Shown in pieces: positions 6,654 through 13,342 of a DNA stretch of 34,486 bases (positions are counted from its first letter, which is position 1; each line of letters begins with the position of its first letter). The stretch lies in NCBI GenBank assembly GCA_015494065.1, contig WGCA01000005.1, forward strand, positions 1-34,486. Direction: 5' to 3'. Position numbers and translations under genes: made by a program. The stretch is from Thermodesulfobacteriaceae bacterium. Its GTDB lineage: Bacteria > Desulfobacterota > Thermodesulfobacteria > Thermodesulfobacteriales > Thermodesulfatatoraceae. Below the pieces are notes generated by a model. That model searched no databases and was not told where the DNA came from. It saw only the letters and a list, made by a program, of their open reading frames with translations.

Positions 6654-7721
6654 TTAGCTTTTCCCCAAAAGGCGCAGGATATCGTTATAAAAGACCACTA
6701 TCATCAGGACGATCAAGAGGGCCAGCCCCAGCTTCATAACGAATTCTTTGGTCTTTTCGGGAATGGGTTTGCCCCGCAGGCCTTCGATGGCGTAAAGGAA
6801 AAGATGCCCGCCGTCCAGCATAGGGATGGGAAGGAGATTTAAGACCCCGAGGTTTACCGAAAGTACCGCCATAAAGGATACCAGCGGCCAGAGTCCAGCC
6901 TGGGCCTGTTCTCCAGCCAGTTTGGCGATAAAGATAGGCCCTCCCAAGGTGGAAAGGGGCAGGACCCGTTCCACCAGCTTGATGACCGAGACCACCGTGA
7001 GTTTGATCATGGCAAGCACCATGAGGAAGGCCTCGGCCAGGGCCTTTACGGGATCGGTCTTTACGAACCGGGCCTTGCCCGCCGACATGATGCCGATCAA
7101 GGGGGTTTTGATGGTCTCACCGAAGATGTTTTTCACTTCCCTAAGCTGAGGGGTTACCGTAACCACGAGCCTTTCCTGGCCGCGTTTAATGGTTAGCTTT
7201 AGCGGTCGCCCGGCGCTTTTTTTGATAAGGGCGTTTAGTTCTTGCCAGCTTGAGATGGGCTGCCCGTTAACCGCTACGATCAGGTCCCCTGGCTTAAGGC
7301 CAGCCTGGGCCGCAGGACTGTCAGGCAAGACCTTTCCCACTTCTGGCAAATAGACGGGTTTTCCCTGAAAGACGAAGACCAGGACGAAAAAGAACCACGC
7401 CAGGACAAAGTTGGCCAAAGGCCCGGCCAATACGATCAGGGCCTTGTCTCTTAAAGGGCGGTGGGAGAAAGAGTAGGGTATTTCTTCAGGGCTAAGCCTT
7501 TCTCCCGGGTTTTCCCCTAGGAGTTTTACGTATCCTCCCAGGGGGATGGCCGAGAGGATATATTCGGTGTGCCCCCGTTTAAAGCCTACCAGTTTGGGGC
7601 CAAAACCTAAGGAAAACTTAAGGACCCTTACCCCAACCAGACGGGCCATCAAGAAATGGCCCAATTCGTGGAAAAAGATGAGCACCCCTAAGACGACGAT
7701 TACGGCCAAAACGGTATACAT
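6654..7721 (-). CDS. rseP: RIP (site-2) zinc metalloprotease RseP
   Basis: An inner-membrane intramembrane protease that cleaves transmembrane substrates such as anti-sigma factors or signal-peptide remnants. The active site FHELGH lies in the first transmembrane helix (near residue 20), and the partner motif LDGGHL lies in the C-terminal membrane part near 303. A single PDZ domain is visible between them (PDSPAAQAGLKPGDLIVAVNG). E. coli RseP has two PDZ domains and about 450 residues; this 355-residue form is the shorter bacterial type. The ATG at 7721 overlaps the dxr stop as TGATG; a TTG three bases upstream is possible but less likely. It is the last gene of the rpsB operon. Confidence 0.92.
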   Translation of the reverse strand: MYTVLAVIVVLGVLIFFHELGHFLMARLVGVRVLKFSLGFGPKLVGFKRGHTEYILSAIPLGGYVKLLGENPGERLSPEEIPYSFSHRPLRDKALIVLAGPLANFVLAWFFFVLVFVFQGKPVYLPEVGKVLPDSPAAQAGLKPGDLIVAVNGQPISSWQELNALIKKSAGRPLKLTIKRGQERLVVTVTPQLREVKNIFGETIKTPLIGIMSAGKARFVKTDPVKALAEAFLMVLAMIKLTVVSVIKLVERVLPLSTLGGPIFIAKLAGEQAQAGLWPLVSFMAVLSVNLGVLNLLPIPMLDGGHLFLYAIEGLRGKPIPEKTKEFVMKLGLALLIVLMIVVFYNDILRLLGKS

Positions 7722-8896
7722 CAAATCTTCTCCAGTCGGTCCACTATTTCTTGGGCTTTGATCCTTGCGAGTATATCGGCTTCGAGGACGTCTTCCAATG
7801 AGTTAATTTCTTTTTTCGGGCAGGCGGCCAGGGTTTCTTCCACCAAAGAGGGGATGAGGTCAAAACGGAGGCGGCCTGAGAGGAAGGCTTCCACCGCCAC
7901 TTCGTTGGCGGCGTTTAATATGGCAGGCGCCGTGCCCCCTTCCGCCAACACCTCGTAAGCCAGTTTTAGACAGGGGAATTTTTCCAGGTCTGGTTCTTCA
8001 AAGGTAAGGGGAGAGGCCGCTACCAGATCAAGGGGAGGAAGCCCTAGGGGAAGCCTTTCGGGATAGGAGAGGGCATAAGCTATGGGAATACGCATATCAG
8101 GGATACCTAGGTGGGCTATCACCGAGCCGTCAATAAACTCTACCAGGGAATGGACGATGCTTTGGGGGTGGATCTTTACTTTTATTTTTTCAGGGGGAAT
8201 ATCAAAGAGAAAGTGGGCCTCGATTACCTCAAGTCCCTTGTTCATCAAGGTGGCGGAATCAATGGTGATTTTGGCCCCCATCTGCCAGTTGGGGTGTTTT
8301 AAGGCTTCTTCTACCGTTACTCGGGCCAGCTCTTCCTTGGCCCGGTCCCGGAAGGGTCCTCCTGAGGCCGTAAGGATCAGGCGAGAGACCTCTTCTTTGC
8401 GACCCGCCTTTAAGGCCTGAAAAATGGCTGAGTGTTCACTATCCACCGGGAGGATTTTGACCCCCCGCCTCCTAGCCTCGGCTTTTACCAAAGGCCCAGC
8501 CATGACCAGGGTCTCTTTGTTGGCCAGGGCTACGTTTTTGCCCTGTCTTACGGCCTCATAGGTGGGCAGGAGCCCGATAGCCCCCACCAGGGCGGAAACC
8601 ACCAGCTCCACCTCCGGATGCACCGCACAGGCGACGGCCCCTTCTCTTCCGTAAAGAATTTCAACGTCGGGGGGGACTAATTCTTTTAATCTTTGGGCCA
8701 GGTTTTCGTTTTTGCAGGAGATGAGCCGCGGCTTAAATTTCCGGGCCTGTTCAGCCAAGAGGGTGATGTTTTCCCCGGCGGCCAGGGCGATTACCTGAAA
8801 TCTATCCGGAAAACGGGAGATGACGTCTAGCGTATTACGGCCTATGGAGCCCGTAGAACCCAGAACAGAAATCTTTTTGGCCTTTTTAGAAGACAT
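7721..8896 (-). CDS. dxr: 1-deoxy-D-xylulose-5-phosphate reductoisomerase
   Basis: Converts DXP to 2-C-methyl-D-erythritol 4-phosphate with NADPH, the committed step of the non-mevalonate isoprenoid pathway. The nucleotide-binding motif GSTGSIG is at residues 13-19. PVDSEHSAIFQ and LTASGGPF give the metal- and substrate-binding regions, and GLEVIEAHFLF is also typical. At 391 residues the length is normal. It overlaps cdsA by 11 bases and touches rseP. With uppS two genes upstream, it supplies precursors for the undecaprenyl carrier made in the same operon. Confidence 0.95.
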   Translation of the reverse strand: MSSKKAKKISVLGSTGSIGRNTLDVISRFPDRFQVIALAAGENITLLAEQARKFKPRLISCKNENLAQRLKELVPPDVEILYGREGAVACAVHPEVELVVSALVGAIGLLPTYEAVRQGKNVALANKETLVMAGPLVKAEARRRGVKILPVDSEHSAIFQALKAGRKEEVSRLILTASGGPFRDRAKEELARVTVEEALKHPNWQMGAKITIDSATLMNKGLEVIEAHFLFDIPPEKIKVKIHPQSIVHSLVEFIDGSVIAHLGIPDMRIPIAYALSYPERLPLGLPPLDLVAASPLTFEEPDLEKFPCLKLAYEVLAEGGTAPAILNAANEVAVEAFLSGRLRFDLIPSLVEETLAACPKKEINSLEDVLEADILARIKAQEIVDRLEKI

Positions 8897-9662
8897 AGTC
8901 CTTTAACACCAGGCCCCAATAAAGAAACGGGGCGGCAAAGATCAGGGCGTCGGTACGATCTAAGATACCACCGTGTCCCGGCAGAAGGCTACCCGAATCC
9001 TTGACCCCCAAACCCCTCTTGAAGATAGATTCGAGCAGATCTCCCAGCTGGCCGATTAATGATAAGAAGAAGGCCGCGGCCAGCAAAAACCCCGCCCCTG
9101 CCAAATTGGCGTAATAACCCCACAGGAGCCCCAGCGCCGTCCCGAGCAAGGTGCCCCCTACTGCTCCTTCCCAGGTTTTTTTAGGGCTCACGCGGGGGAT
9201 GAGGCGGTGCTTGCCCAAGGTCTTTCCCGCGTAAAAGGCCCCGGTATCCGTCCCAAAGACGCAGGCCATCAAGAAAAGGAGCCAGAATCTGCCTTGCGGC
9301 AGGGTGGTCAGGAAATAGAGGTGTATAAACCCCAGAAATACGTACGTGTAACCGGCAAAGGCCAGACACAGTTGTTTAAGCGTCTTTTGGGGATCGTAGT
9401 TTTTGAGATAAAAACACAAAAAGAAAAAGAGCCCCACCCAGAGCCCGGGCTCGGTCTGTTGAGCGGCGTAGCTCAGGGAAAGGGCCAGGGCGCCGGCCAC
9501 AAAGACAGGCCCGGGTAGCTGAGCCATCCGGGCCATTTCGTGCCACCCCAGGAGGGAACAGCCGCCCACGGTGATGAGGAGCAGGGTGGGTGAGCCTTTT
9601 AAGATAAGGAATAAAACCAGGGGAAGCAGTATAAGGGCGGTCAAAACTCGGGCGGCATGCAT
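8886..9662 (-). CDS. cdsA: Phosphatidate cytidylyltransferase CdsA
   Basis: A polytopic inner-membrane enzyme that makes CDP-diacylglycerol from phosphatidate and CTP for phospholipid synthesis. Several hydrophobic helices span the N-terminal two thirds. The family signature is intact near the C-terminus: S-IFKRG-(3)-KDSG-(4)-PGHGGILDRTD, which contains the catalytic Lys-Asp and the metal-binding Asp residues. At 258 residues it is a typical short form. It starts four bases after uppS ends and overlaps dxr by 11 bases, so the genes are probably cotranscribed and coupled. Confidence 0.93.
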   Translation of the reverse strand: MHAARVLTALILLPLVLFLILKGSPTLLLITVGGCSLLGWHEMARMAQLPGPVFVAGALALSLSYAAQQTEPGLWVGLFFFLCFYLKNYDPQKTLKQLCLAFAGYTYVFLGFIHLYFLTTLPQGRFWLLFLMACVFGTDTGAFYAGKTLGKHRLIPRVSPKKTWEGAVGGTLLGTALGLLWGYYANLAGAGFLLAAAFFLSLIGQLGDLLESIFKRGLGVKDSGSLLPGHGGILDRTDALIFAAPFLYWGLVLKDYVF

Positions 9663-9666
9663 TATT

Positions 9667-10404
9667 TCAAGACTTTAACTGTTCACTCAGCTTTCCGAAA
9701 CGTCTTTCCCTCCGCTGGTAATCTTTCAAGGCCTCCAGGAACTCCTTTTCACGAAAATCCGGCCACAACGTGGGGGTGAAATAGAGTTCAGTGTAAGCGC
9801 ACTGGTAGAGCAAAAAATTAGAGAGCCGGAGTTCCCCGCTGGTACGAATGAGGAGGTCTGGGTCAGGCAGGTCTTTGGTATAGAGATAGGAGGCAAAGAG
9901 CGCTTCGTCGACCTCTTCGATTTTTAGTTTTCCCGCCAGGCAGGCCCTGGCTATTTCCCGGGCGGCGTGGGCGATTTCAGCACGCCCCCCATAACTTAAG
10001 GCCAGGTTGAGGATCATCCCCTGGTTCTGGGAGGTTTTTTTGAGGGCCTGGACCAGGAGCTCGTAGACTTCTTTGGGCAAGAGTTCAATTTCTCCAATGG
10101 CCCTGATCTGGATGTCTTTTTGGTGGAGTTCATCCACTTCTTTTTGGAGGTATTCCGCGAGCAAACGCATGAGAAAGGAGACCTCATCCTGGGGCCGTTG
10201 CCAGTTCTCTTTAGAGAAGGCGTAGAGAGTGAGGACCTTGATGCCTAACTTGCGGGCCGTTTCCACCACGGCCCGGACGGATTTCATCCCCTCGCGGTGG
10301 CCCATAACGCGGGGCAGGCGCCGGGCTTTGGCCCAGCGGCCGTTACCGTCCATAATAATGGCCACGTGGGTGGGGATCTTCTCCGGGTCAAGCCCTTCCA
10401 ACAT
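9667..10404 (-). CDS. uppS: Undecaprenyl diphosphate synthase UppS
   Basis: A cis-prenyltransferase that extends farnesyl diphosphate with isopentenyl diphosphate to the C55 lipid carrier for cell-wall and surface polysaccharide export. The catalytic block IIMDGNGRWAKAR (17-29) includes Asp19, and MGHREG follows. The C-terminal signature RTSGELRLSNFLLYQ and the aromatic-acidic TELYFTPTLWPDF complete the family pattern. At 245 residues the length is normal. The ATG follows the frr stop codon with no gap, so translation is probably coupled. Confidence 0.96.
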   Translation of the reverse strand: MLEGLDPEKIPTHVAIIMDGNGRWAKARRLPRVMGHREGMKSVRAVVETARKLGIKVLTLYAFSKENWQRPQDEVSFLMRLLAEYLQKEVDELHQKDIQIRAIGEIELLPKEVYELLVQALKKTSQNQGMILNLALSYGGRAEIAHAAREIARACLAGKLKIEEVDEALFASYLYTKDLPDPDLLIRTSGELRLSNFLLYQCAYTELYFTPTLWPDFREKEFLEALKDYQRRERRFGKLSEQLKS

Positions 10405-10962
10405 CTAAACGGTCATTATGTCCTTTTCTTTCTGGGCCAAAATATCGTCTATTTTGTCGATATATTCGTCGGTAATTTTTTGGAGTTGCTCCTGGGCCCG
10501 GTAGAAATCGTCTTCGGAAATCTTTCCTTCTTTCTTGAGGTCTTTTAAATCGTTCAAGATATCCCGTCTTACGTTGCGTACTGCCACCCGGGCCTCTTCC
10601 GCCATTTTGCGCACCATCTTGACCAGCTCTTTCCGCCTCTCTTCGGTAAGGGGTGGCACTGAGATACGGATAATCTTTCCGTCGTTTACCGGGTTAAGCC
10701 CCAGTTCGGCCCGCTGGATGGCCTTCTCAATGGCGGAGATAGCGGAAACGTCCCAGGGTTGGACCACTATCAACCGGGCGTCCTGGACGGTGATAGTGGC
10801 CATCTGGTTTAGGGGCATCTGGGTGCCGTAATAGTCAACCTTGATGCCATCAAGTAACGCTACCGAGGCCCGGCCAGTGCGCACCCGGGCCACTTCGTTT
10901 TTAAAGGTCTCTACAGATTTGGCCATCCGCCGTTTAGCGTCTTCCAAAAGTTCTTTAACCAT
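10405..10962 (-). CDS. frr: Ribosome recycling factor
   Basis: Splits post-termination ribosomes together with EF-G. The chain of 185 residues has the canonical size and motifs: a long helical MVKELLEDAKRRMAKSVE start, RTGRASVALLDGIKVDYYG, PLNQMATITV and the C-terminal three-helix-bundle segment LKKEGKISEDDFYRAQEQLQKITDEYI. I chose the ATG at 10962 because GGGAGG (10971-10976) lies eight bases upstream. A GTG at 10971 in the same frame would sit inside that SD site and add only three residues. It overlaps the end of pyrH by eight bases. Confidence 0.96.
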   Translation of the reverse strand: MVKELLEDAKRRMAKSVETFKNEVARVRTGRASVALLDGIKVDYYGTQMPLNQMATITVQDARLIVVQPWDVSAISAIEKAIQRAELGLNPVNDGKIIRISVPPLTEERRKELVKMVRKMAEEARVAVRNVRRDILNDLKDLKKEGKISEDDFYRAQEQLQKITDEYIDKIDDILAQKEKDIMTV

Positions 10963-11689
10963 GGCGCTCACCTCCCACGAGCGTACCCACTTTGTCCCCC
11001 AAAACCGCCCTTTTTATGTTGCCCGGCACCTGAACGTTGAAGACCAGGATGGGTAAGTTATTGTCCCGTGCCAGGGCAATGGCCGTAAGGTCCATCACCC
11101 TCAACTTGCGGGAAATCACTTCGTCATAAGAAAGATAATCATATTTTCGGGCCTCAGGGTCCTTTTGAGGATCTGCACTGTAGACTCCGTCCACCTTGGT
11201 GGCCTTAAGCATCAACTGGGCCTTGATCTCAAGGGCCCTCAGGGTGGCCGCGGTATCCGTGGTGAAAAAGGGGTTTCCCGTTCCGGCGGCAAAGATTACG
11301 AAATAACCCTTATCAAGCAGGGAAAGGACTTCTTCCCGGGCCACCGGAGCCACCACCCCCTTTATTTCGTAAGCGGAAAAAACCCTGGCCGGCACCCCGT
11401 GCTCTTTGAGGGCCTCCTCAAGGGCTATGGCGTTGATCACCGTGGCCAGCATGCCCATCTGGTCCGCGCGAACCCGGTCAAAACCCTGGGCTACTCCGGC
11501 CAGACCACGAAAGATATTTCCTCCGCCGACCACCAGGCCTACTTCTACGTTTAAGGTTTTTAGACTGGCAAGTTCTCTGGCCAGTGAGGATAAGACGGCA
11601 GGGTCAATGCCGTGGGCGGCGGAGCCCATCAGGGCTTCGCCGCTTAACTTGAGAAGTATTCTCCGGTATTTCGGGGCCTCCTCCGACAT
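10955..11689 (-). CDS. pyrH: UMP kinase PyrH
   Basis: Phosphorylates UMP to UDP in pyrimidine nucleotide synthesis. It belongs to the amino-acid-kinase fold, not the P-loop kinases. KLSGEALMG near residue 14, GGGNIFRG near 57, a DQMGMLATVINA block and TGNPFFTTDTAA near 139 are the family motifs. At 244 residues the length is normal. The SD is GAGGAAG ahead of the ATG, which directly follows the tsf stop. Position between tsf and frr is the classical order in many bacteria. Confidence 0.96.
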   Translation of the reverse strand: MSEEAPKYRRILLKLSGEALMGSAAHGIDPAVLSSLARELASLKTLNVEVGLVVGGGNIFRGLAGVAQGFDRVRADQMGMLATVINAIALEEALKEHGVPARVFSAYEIKGVVAPVAREEVLSLLDKGYFVIFAAGTGNPFFTTDTAATLRALEIKAQLMLKATKVDGVYSADPQKDPEARKYDYLSYDEVISRKLRVMDLTAIALARDNNLPILVFNVQVPGNIKRAVLGDKVGTLVGGERHG

Positions 11690-12292
11690 TTATTCTTCCT
11701 CGCCTACCTGATAGCGGGTAAAACGTCTTATCTGAATGCGCTCTCCGGTCTTGGTCATAAGTTCGTTTAACAGGTCCTGGATGGTGAGGTCAGGGTTTTT
11801 CACGAAGGGCTGTTCCAAAAGGACGGACTCCTTGAAGAATTTTTCCAGTTTACCTTGGACGATCTTCTCGATTACGTTTTCCGGTTTACCACTTTCTCTG
11901 GCCTGGGCGATATAGATTTCTTTTTCGCGGTTTATTATCTCTTCCGGCATGTCTTCCCGGGCGACACAGACGGGGTTTGTGGCGGCGATATGCATGGCCA
12001 GGTCGTAAGCAAACTTTTGAAACTCTTCGGTACGGGCCACAAAATCCGTCTCGCAATTTACTTCCACCATGGCCCCCAGTTTTTTGGTAGCGTGGATGTA
12101 GGCTGCCACCACCCCTTCTTTGGTAGCCTTGCCGGCCCTTTTGGCAGCCACCGCCAGGCCTCTCTGGCGCAGAATATCAACGGCTTTTTCCAGATCGCCC
12201 CCGGCTTCTTCTAAGGCCTTTTTACAGTCCATAAAGCCTGCCGCGGTCTTCTCACGCAGCTTTTTTATCAGGTCTAAGGTGACTTCCGCCAT
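11690..12292 (-). CDS. tsf: Elongation factor Ts (short form)
   Basis: The nucleotide exchange factor for EF-Tu. The UBA-like N-terminus contains LREKTAAGFMDCKKALEEA, the classical EF-Ts signature, followed by GDLEKAVDILRQRG. The core keeps EVNCETDFVARTEEFQ, the second family signature. At 200 residues it is the short form, like that of Thermus, rather than the 283-residue E. coli form. The SD GAGGAGGG lies just before the ATG. It is cotranscribed with rpsB, 25 bases upstream. Confidence 0.96.
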   Translation of the reverse strand: MAEVTLDLIKKLREKTAAGFMDCKKALEEAGGDLEKAVDILRQRGLAVAAKRAGKATKEGVVAAYIHATKKLGAMVEVNCETDFVARTEEFQKFAYDLAMHIAATNPVCVAREDMPEEIINREKEIYIAQARESGKPENVIEKIVQGKLEKFFKESVLLEQPFVKNPDLTIQDLLNELMTKTGERIQIRRFTRYQVGEEE

Positions 12293-12317: not shown

Positions 12318-13172
12318 TTATTCTTGGTTTTCGGCCTGGGTTACTGCTTCCGATTCTTCGGTAGCGCTCAAGGCTTCGCTGACGATTTCTTCAGCGAGCT
12401 TCTCGGCCTCTTCTTCCGAGGAAGCCTCAGCGGCTTCCAGCATTTCGGCCTCTATCTCTTTGTCGGTTTCGGCCTGGAGTTTTTCCTCCCAGAGGCTCTT
12501 TCCTTCCAGACAGGCGTCGGCGATTTTGCTGGTCAGAAGCTTGATGGCGCGGATGGCGTCGTCATTGCCAGGGATGATGTAATCGATGAGATCCGGGTCA
12601 CAGTTGGTGTCCACGATGGCCACGATGGGAATCCCCAGCTTCCGGGCCTCAAGGACGGCGATGTGTTCTTTCTTGGGGTCCACGATATAAATGGCCTGGG
12701 GAAGATCTTCCATTTCTTTAATACCCCCCAGGTTACGCTCTAGTTTCTGTCTCAGTCTTTCCAGCTTGAGCCGTTCTTTTTTGGGAAAACGTTCAATGGT
12801 GCCGTCCTCAAACCAGCTCTCGATTTTTTTGAGCTTTTCGATACTGCGGCGGATGGTGCGGAAATTGGTAAGGGTGCCCCCCAGCCAGCGATGATTGACG
12901 TAAAACATGCCACAGCGTTCCGCCTCTTCCTTGATGGTGTCCTGGGCCTGCCGCTTGGTCCCCACAAAAAGGACCTTTCCTCCGTTGGCTACGGTGTCTA
13001 CGAGGAAATCATAGGCCACGTCAAAGAGTTTTACCGTTTGCTGAAGGTCAATGATGTGGATGCCGTTTCTTTCCCCAAAGATAAAGGGTTTCATTTTGGG
13101 GTTCCAGCGACGGGTCTGGTGCCCGAAATGGACCCCGGCTTCTAAAAGCTGCTTCATGGTAAGTCTTGACAT
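12318..13172 (-). CDS. rpsB: 30S ribosomal protein S2 with acidic C-terminal tail
   Basis: A small-subunit ribosomal protein. [19 protein letters not shown] at the start, the [23 protein letters not shown] block and [19 protein letters not shown] are diagnostic. I place the start at 13172 because AAGGAGGT lies just upstream. An open frame extends another 69 bases, but it only crosses the structured leader. The 284-residue product is longer than E. coli S2 (241) because of an acidic, Glu/Ala-rich tail from about residue 235 to the end. Such tails occur in several phyla and have no assigned role. It is the first gene of the operon. Confidence 0.96.
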
Positions 13173-13207
13173 GGGATACCTCCTTTTGGGTTTTTCCTCC
13201 GCCCCTA

Positions 13208-13243
13208 AAGTGGCCAATCCGCCCTGCGGACACCCGGCCACTT
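13208..13243 (-). promoter_or_regulatory. Structured rpsB leader RNA, candidate S2 autoregulatory site
   Basis: On the minus strand the leader folds as an 8-bp stem, AAGTGGCC (13236-13243) with GGCCACTT (13208-13215). It encloses a 5-bp TCCGC/GCGGA hairpin with a three-base loop (13218-13230). The asymmetric internal loop has five bases on one side and two on the other. It lies about 36 bases before the rpsB start. In E. coli, S2 represses its own operon through a structured leader, so an analogous role is plausible; this is inference from position and folding. Confidence 0.5.
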
Positions 13244-13273
13244 CCGCGAGAGGGCGTGCGTTTTGCTCGCCAA

Positions 13274-13302
13274 ATTTAACACTAAAGAAGGATTGAGGGC
13301 AA
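13274..13302 (-). promoter_or_regulatory. Promoter of the rpsB-tsf-pyrH operon
   Basis: Reading leftward, TTGCCC (13297-13302) and TTAAAT (13274-13279) are separated by exactly 17 bases. Transcription would begin near 13267, giving a leader of about 95 bases that contains the nested hairpin and the rpsB SD. It is the only strong promoter seen upstream of the eight-gene operon. Confidence 0.6.
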
Positions 13303-13315
13303 CCAGATAAAGAGG

Positions 13316-13342
13316 GGAGGGAGGACTAAAAGTCCTCCCTCC
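13316..13342 (-). terminator. Terminator downstream of ppsA
   Basis: A 12-bp perfect stem, GGAGGGAGGACT (13316-13327) with AGTCCTCCCTCC (13331-13342), has a three-base loop. It starts three bases past the ppsA stop on the minus strand, and the exit sequence CCTCTTTATCT is moderately T-rich. It separates ppsA from the rpsB promoter 14 bases further on. Confidence 0.8.

Follow-up and report, generated by a model that had tools for sequence, protein, structure and literature searches.

A pseudoknotted leader upstream of rpsB in a Thermodesulfobacteriaceae bacterium, a candidate site of feedback by ribosomal protein S2

The rpsB locus

The window analyzed here, the whole 34,486-nt stretch of DNA from a Thermodesulfobacteriaceae bacterium, carries the gene for ribosomal protein S2, rpsB, on its minus strand (12318..13172, with the start codon ATG at 13172-13170; Pfam PF00318, E=1.5e-104). 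All features described below lie on this strand, and their coordinates are those of the window. Among the nearest named records, the S2 protein is 100% identical over 265 residues to that of a Thermodesulfatator atlanticus MAG and 92% identical to that of T. autotrophicus. Open reading frames and Pfam matches 3' of rpsB (6654..12292) identify tsf, an AA kinase gene (pyrH by position), frr, and genes encoding an undecaprenyl diphosphate synthase (uppS), a cytidylyltransferase (cdsA), Dxr (dxr) and an M50 protease (rseP-like); these names are inferred wherever they are finer than the Pfam family. A gap of 25 nt separates rpsB from the next gene, and in the list of open reading frames the later same-strand gaps are at most 4 nt or are replaced by overlaps. 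The first-pass annotation had proposed that the operon also controls pyrH, frr and lipid and isoprenoid genes. The presence of these genes is borne out by Pfam, but their common control is suggested by the tight same-strand gene order, through which repression of rpsB could reach them.

The probable rpsB promoter, TTGCCC-17 nt-TTAAAT with TG in front (13274..13302), was recognized as a pattern recurring in leaders of the same family: TTGC...GTGTTAAAT is present in 10/10 of them (L001 and L082-L090, L001 and L083 being near-identical). A simple consensus promoter scan listed no promoter in the rpsB upstream region. Transcription probably starts near 13267, which would give a leader of ~95 nt. 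Farther upstream, following a gene for a PEP-utilizing enzyme, a terminator scan found a terminator-like hairpin of the intrinsic type (13316..13342; 12 pairs and then a T-rich tail) that putatively sets this gene apart from rpsB; it was the one site found, against a shuffle mean of 1.3, a count that is by itself not significant. The palindrome at 13316-13342 is shared by L001 and the near-identical L002 and L083 and is absent from the other same-family leaders over the 170 nt compared. Seven permissive Rfam matches in the window (microRNAs, sraA, XIST) fell mostly on this palindrome and were taken as chance.

Helices of the leader and their covariation

The leader contains three helices. The lower helix, P1a, pairs CGCCC (13252..13256) with GGGCG (13200..13204), 13204 being the first paired position of the 3' strand and 13200 the last; the 5' strand is invariant in 17 type-A leaders (defined below), and the matching helix shows compensatory changes in the type-B leaders. 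P1b pairs AAGUGGCC (13236..13243, read from 13243 to 13236) with GGCCACUU (13208..13215, read from 13215 to 13208) over 8 bp and is supported by covariation on both strands. P3 (13218..13230), supported by the fold and by the type-A alignment, pairs UCCGC (13230-13226) with GCGGA (13222-13218) over 5 bp around the loop AGG. P1b and P3 are joined by an asymmetric loop with 5 nt (GGGUG) on one side and 2 nt (UU) on the other. P1a, an internal loop and P1b together make up one long interrupted helix P1, which has P3 as its cap. The first-pass annotation had described P1b and P3 as a nested hairpin, with an 8-bp outer and a 5-bp inner helix and an asymmetric internal loop; all of these parts lie at the minus-strand position it gave, but the element was incompletely described, P1a and the pseudoknot having been missed.

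The second component is a predicted pseudoknot, in which GGGU (13232..13235), followed by an invariant G, is complementary to ACCC (13188..13191), with further support from covariation of the flanking pair. Two nucleotides from the 3' strand of the pseudoknot lies the Shine-Dalgarno sequence AAGGAGGU (13178..13185). The crossing loop, GAGGAAAA (13192..13199), is A-rich and conserved in the alignments; the final G of P1a and the beginning of the loop spell GGAGG. This second Shine-Dalgarno-like GGAGG (13200-13196) in the crossing region is situated 23 nt 5' of the start codon, and inspection by eye found GGAGG or GGAAG at the same place in 59/66 leaders. An automated tally of GGAGG was set aside, since fragments of the actual Shine-Dalgarno sequence may have entered it.

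Free energy supports the fold weakly. Among 200 shuffles, 23 were as stable as the native sequence for 13170-13280 (z = -1.23) and 8 for 13173-13267 (z = -1.85), and folding energy was dropped as sole evidence. These z-scores are what can be said for reading the hairpin as a chance fold of a GC-rich stretch, a reading that covariation refutes and to which we assign next to no probability. The evidence comes from an alignment, A1, of 17 distinct type-A leaders from the same order (family f1 and genera g7, g8 and g10), among them that of the window. L094 (family f2), which cannot be assigned clearly to either subtype, is omitted from both A1 and the alignment A2, and L083 was removed because its leader duplicates that of L001. 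Within A1, eight of the nine tested outer-helix pairs have changed on both sides, 88.2% of cells pair, and the pairs swap among G-C, C-G, A-U, U-A and G-U with pairing kept. The covariation score of the whole structure is 0.380 against 0.171 in shuffles, which leave the relatedness of the leaders in; none of 500 shuffles reached 0.380. Cells changed on both sides numbered 43, against 18.8 in shuffles, and the observed number of pairs with changes on both sides was reached by 8/500 shuffles. Furthermore, six slid versions of the structure all scored lower than the actual register. Compensatory change thus strongly supports the predicted helix P1b, and the check that the first-pass annotation had suggested, covariation among related rpsB leaders, comes out in its favor. 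Some A1 pairs are weak, partly through gap placement: 30-56 is standard in 7/17 leaders, 38-51 in 8/17 and the pseudoknot pair 33-84 in 11/17. RNAalifold added GG/CC pairs (77-86 and 78-85) between invariant columns of A1; these were rejected because the Cs belong to the pseudoknot strand and the pairs show no covariation.

The order contains a second form of the leader, type B, represented by 22 leaders (L095 and L100-L120; genera g5, g6 and g9). Here the helix matching P1a is extended to 9 bp, with compensatory changes in 7/9 pairs, and P1b is absent. The expectation that the stem would be kept in close relatives therefore holds within type A but fails in type B. The type-B pseudoknot spans 4-8 bp; in 11/22 leaders it is 7-8 bp, up to UUUGGGGU/ACCCCAAA, and 0-2 nt separate its end from the GGAGG of the Shine-Dalgarno sequence.

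Homologous leaders and the pseudoknot

A covariance model, R1, was built from type-A leaders only, with the Shine-Dalgarno sequence and AUG included, and was run against 60 genomes, among them that of the window. The best 35 matches (E<=0.0022) all adjoin rpsB; 18 are training leaders or an identical copy and 17 are independent. The first match away from rpsB follows at E=0.0038. At E<=1, with coordinates compared by eye, R1 matched at rpsB in 36/41 genomes of the order and in 4/19 other genomes of the phylum, and the window's own genome gave a single match, at rpsB and not at tsf. R1 had no match at rpsB in five of the 41 order genomes (G014, G028, G034, G036 and G037; stricter filters), in whose leaders P1, GGGUG and ACCC or ACTC are present by eye. 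Because 3/52 R1 matches in 78 loci fell away from rpsB starts (L018:3087, L024 and L025), a second type-A-only model, R2, was made without the Shine-Dalgarno sequence and AUG.

R2 was searched in 90 loci (458 kb), outside the order as far as titles and similarity tell and all chosen for holding rpsB. By eye, 39/39 matches at E<=1 lie directly upstream of rpsB on the same strand. Loci of 2-7 kb, long enough to allow matches at other places, account for 27 of them, and 351-nt pieces cut around the rpsB start for the other 12. At this threshold R2 had no match in 51/90 of these distant loci. The matches include Desulfobulbus relatives, Companilactobacillus and the rpsB leader of Escherichia coli K-12 (L137:274-353, E=8.2e-7), where the match overlaps the annotated tff and an Rfam t44 match (261-347). 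In L130 (G047), L016, L024 and L028, which have no R2 match, GGAGG and an in-leader start, AUGGAA..., occur shortly upstream of rpsB. Comparison by these models establishes that the predicted element is specific to rpsB and homologous to the E. coli leader. The first-pass annotation had doubted that E. coli could serve as a guide for so distant a lineage, a doubt that the K-12 match does not bear out. Its proposal of a candidate S2 site in the rpsB leader is supported by homology, since R2, trained on this lineage alone, finds the S2-responsive E. coli leader, and by the best 35 R1 matches, all of which are at rpsB.

These searches also bear on the reading that the pseudoknot makes the 5' UTR a structural or translation-enhancing element, such as a stability element or a docking site for 30S or S1, with no feedback by S2. 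In the predicted fold the Shine-Dalgarno sequence is paired by a weak 3-bp stem alone, so that the default state could be 'on', as such a reading would have it. A general enhancer, however, should turn up in front of other genes as well, and neither the placing of the 35 best R1 matches in the 60 genomes, all at rpsB, nor the homology to an S2-responsive leader fits it well; we consider this explanation unlikely.

Curated Rfam models did not recover these leaders at their cut-offs. In the window, neither the t44 nor the rpsB model gave a match, whether at gathering thresholds or at permissive E-values. A search of the window's whole genome with t44 (RF00127, cut-off 44 bits) likewise gave no match up to E<=10. 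Below its cut-off it matched 4/20 leaders of relatives (L123, 36 bits; L121, 35.1; L129, 25.3; L127, 21.8); since sub-threshold matches were also obtained in control genomes, one of them an archaeon, these weak matches alone are no proof. With the rpsB model (RF01815, cut-off 40 bits), 0/41 order genomes exceeded the cut-off and no match fell at the window's leader; sub-threshold matches at rpsB leaders reached 25.2 bits in L121 and 30 bits in G032, and the own genome's only weak match was on another contig. Thus, the leaders of the order escaped the Rfam models, whose cut-offs were not reached where tried.

In 40/41 order leaders (39 with ACCC, and L101 with ACTC), an unbroken run of 4 bp or more, starting from the U of GGGU, can form with the stretch before the Shine-Dalgarno sequence; in this set L083 repeats the leader of L001. 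In the remaining leader, L094, a machine-made pseudoknot match proved spurious, and GGU/ACC alone is left by eye. The S2 leader pseudoknot is therefore present in 41/41 sampled genomes of this thermophilic order, with three pairs left in L094. The distance from the pseudoknot to GGAGG or AGGAGG is 0-7 nt in 40 order leaders. Within the order the GGU/ACC core is nearly invariant and so yields no covariation there, and the pseudoknot of the window's leader comprises 4 bp.

Leaders from across the bacteria were aligned with R2, a model that itself contains no pseudoknot, and the base pair flanking the core was scored. An R2 match at E<=0.05 was obtained in 66 of 72 loci, six order leaders having none; 8/66 lacked usable anchors, leaving 58 parsed leaders. 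The flanking pair is Watson-Crick in 49/58, against 29.7 in shuffles, with G-C in 35, U-A in 13, C-G in 1 and no pairing in 9. When leaders were thinned to <80% identity, 28/33 retained a Watson-Crick pair (0/20000 shuffles as high); at <70% identity the figure was 14/19 against 7.6 (16/20000), and at <65% it was 9/12 (140/20000). An earlier, looser parse of 66/76 leaders had given 50 Watson-Crick pairs against 30.5, and stricter anchors were adopted after some were found misplaced (L089, L011, L027, L010 and L132). In that looser parse the second and third pairs outward from the core were weaker, 46 and 1153 of 10000 shuffles being as high. Pseudoknot complementarity and the predicted fold are thereby established by sequence comparison.

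Proposed control by S2 and comparison with the rpsB motif

According to a 2024 review (PMC10931766), the rpsB-tsf leader of E. coli mediates repression by S2, and S1 is needed for this to be effective; S2 control of this leader is also stated in the motif section of Meyer et al. (2009, BMC Genomics 10:268, PMC2704228), citing Aseev 2008. By homology, we think it probable that the leader described here is an rpsB-motif pseudoknot by which surplus S2 lowers its own production. We infer S2 as the ligand and repression, not activation, as the outcome, and the step that would be blocked and the effects on distal genes are proposed on the same basis. Once more S2 is made than there are assembly sites on 16S rRNA, the unbound protein, possibly joined by S1 as it is in E. 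coli, would bind the leader fold and stabilize its pseudoknotted form, blocking loading of the 30S subunit. Translation of rpsB would then fall, and expression of the rest of the operon could follow through coupling or mRNA decay. Since the 3' strand of the pseudoknot lies next to the Shine-Dalgarno sequence, a stabilized pseudoknot should hinder 30S loading directly.

The terminator scan found no terminator-like site between the promoter and rpsB, which favors translational control and argues against a transcription attenuator. An RNA thermometer might be suspected from strong stems in the 5' UTR of a thermophile, but the conserved parts are loops and the pseudoknot, not a stem sequestering the Shine-Dalgarno sequence, and either of these functions appears very improbable. 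The leader could also be read by EF-Ts, by S1 alone or by an S1:S2 complex instead of S2 itself. Both the few rpsB-motif copies that precede the EF-Ts gene, as mentioned in the section by Meyer et al. (PMC2704228), and the need of S2 for S1 in E. coli would accommodate such a partner. The same passages of the review (PMC10931766), however, name S2 as the repressor, and the single R1 match of the own genome is at rpsB and not at tsf; we regard another partner as quite improbable.

Under control by S2, the S2 operator of Thermodesulfobacteria might act as a direct steric switch, the S2-stabilized pseudoknot and 30S loading being mutually exclusive, unlike in E. coli, with the GGAGG or GGAAG of the crossing loop serving as a 30S standby or decoy site. 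We offer this reading tentatively and with considerable doubt; it is suggested by a pseudoknot strand that reaches to 0-7 nt from the Shine-Dalgarno sequence and, in leaders of the subtype without P1b, attains as many as 8 bp. The S2 leader pseudoknot stands before an eight-gene cluster that includes genes for cell-envelope precursors. The compact versions of the leader suit structural work on the feedback loop; for E. coli, the passages of the review place the ribosome binding site outside the operator and describe the mechanism and the blocked step as unclear (PMC10931766).

As defined in the motif section of Meyer et al. (2009, PMC2704228), the rpsB motif consists of a long P1, an optional P2 that is missing from several taxa, P3, and a pseudoknot that links the P2/P3 junction with a 3' extension following P1. 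Its range as given there covers most Alpha- and Gammaproteobacteria, a few Beta-, Delta- and Epsilonproteobacteria, Cyanobacteria and some Firmicutes. Like this motif, the window's leader is a 5' UTR just before rpsB with a long P1 (P1a and P1b), P3 and a pseudoknot, of 3-5 bp in the motif, from J2-3 to the 3' extension; the optional P2 is absent here. Because its position, long P1, P3, pseudoknot and R2 homology to the E. coli leader all agree, the leader is, by sequence, a member of the rpsB motif, and is filed under this wider motif and not as an Rfam t44 hit, the curated RF00127 model having no match here though the E. coli leader is homologous by R2. The kind of element is thus already known, and its thermodesulfobacterial members appear to be new as far as seen: the order is unnamed in that motif section, which has 'a few' Deltaproteobacteria, and we found no report of the motif in the order among the open-licence PMC papers listed, although the supplementary alignment of Meyer et al. 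may hold members. As to likeness to 16S rRNA (h26/h35-h37), the section by Meyer et al. finds none obvious (PMC2704228), whereas the review passages describe a common architecture in enterobacteria (PMC10931766).

The E. coli rpsB-tsf operator (t44, tff) has the same order of parts, CAC-P1, GGGGUG, P3, GGAGG and AACCCC. In E. coli 11 nt separate ACCCC from AGAGG, whereas in the order leaders 0-7 nt precede GGAGG or AGGAGG. Relative to the motif as defined in the section by Meyer et al., one subtype of the order has an internal loop that divides P1 into P1a and P1b, and type B (g5, g6 and g9) lacks P1b and has a pseudoknot lengthened to 7-8 bp in 11/22 leaders. Beyond simple membership, therefore, the leaders of this order are distinguished by the short distance between pseudoknot and Shine-Dalgarno sequence and by the type-B form, with its longer pseudoknot and no P1b.
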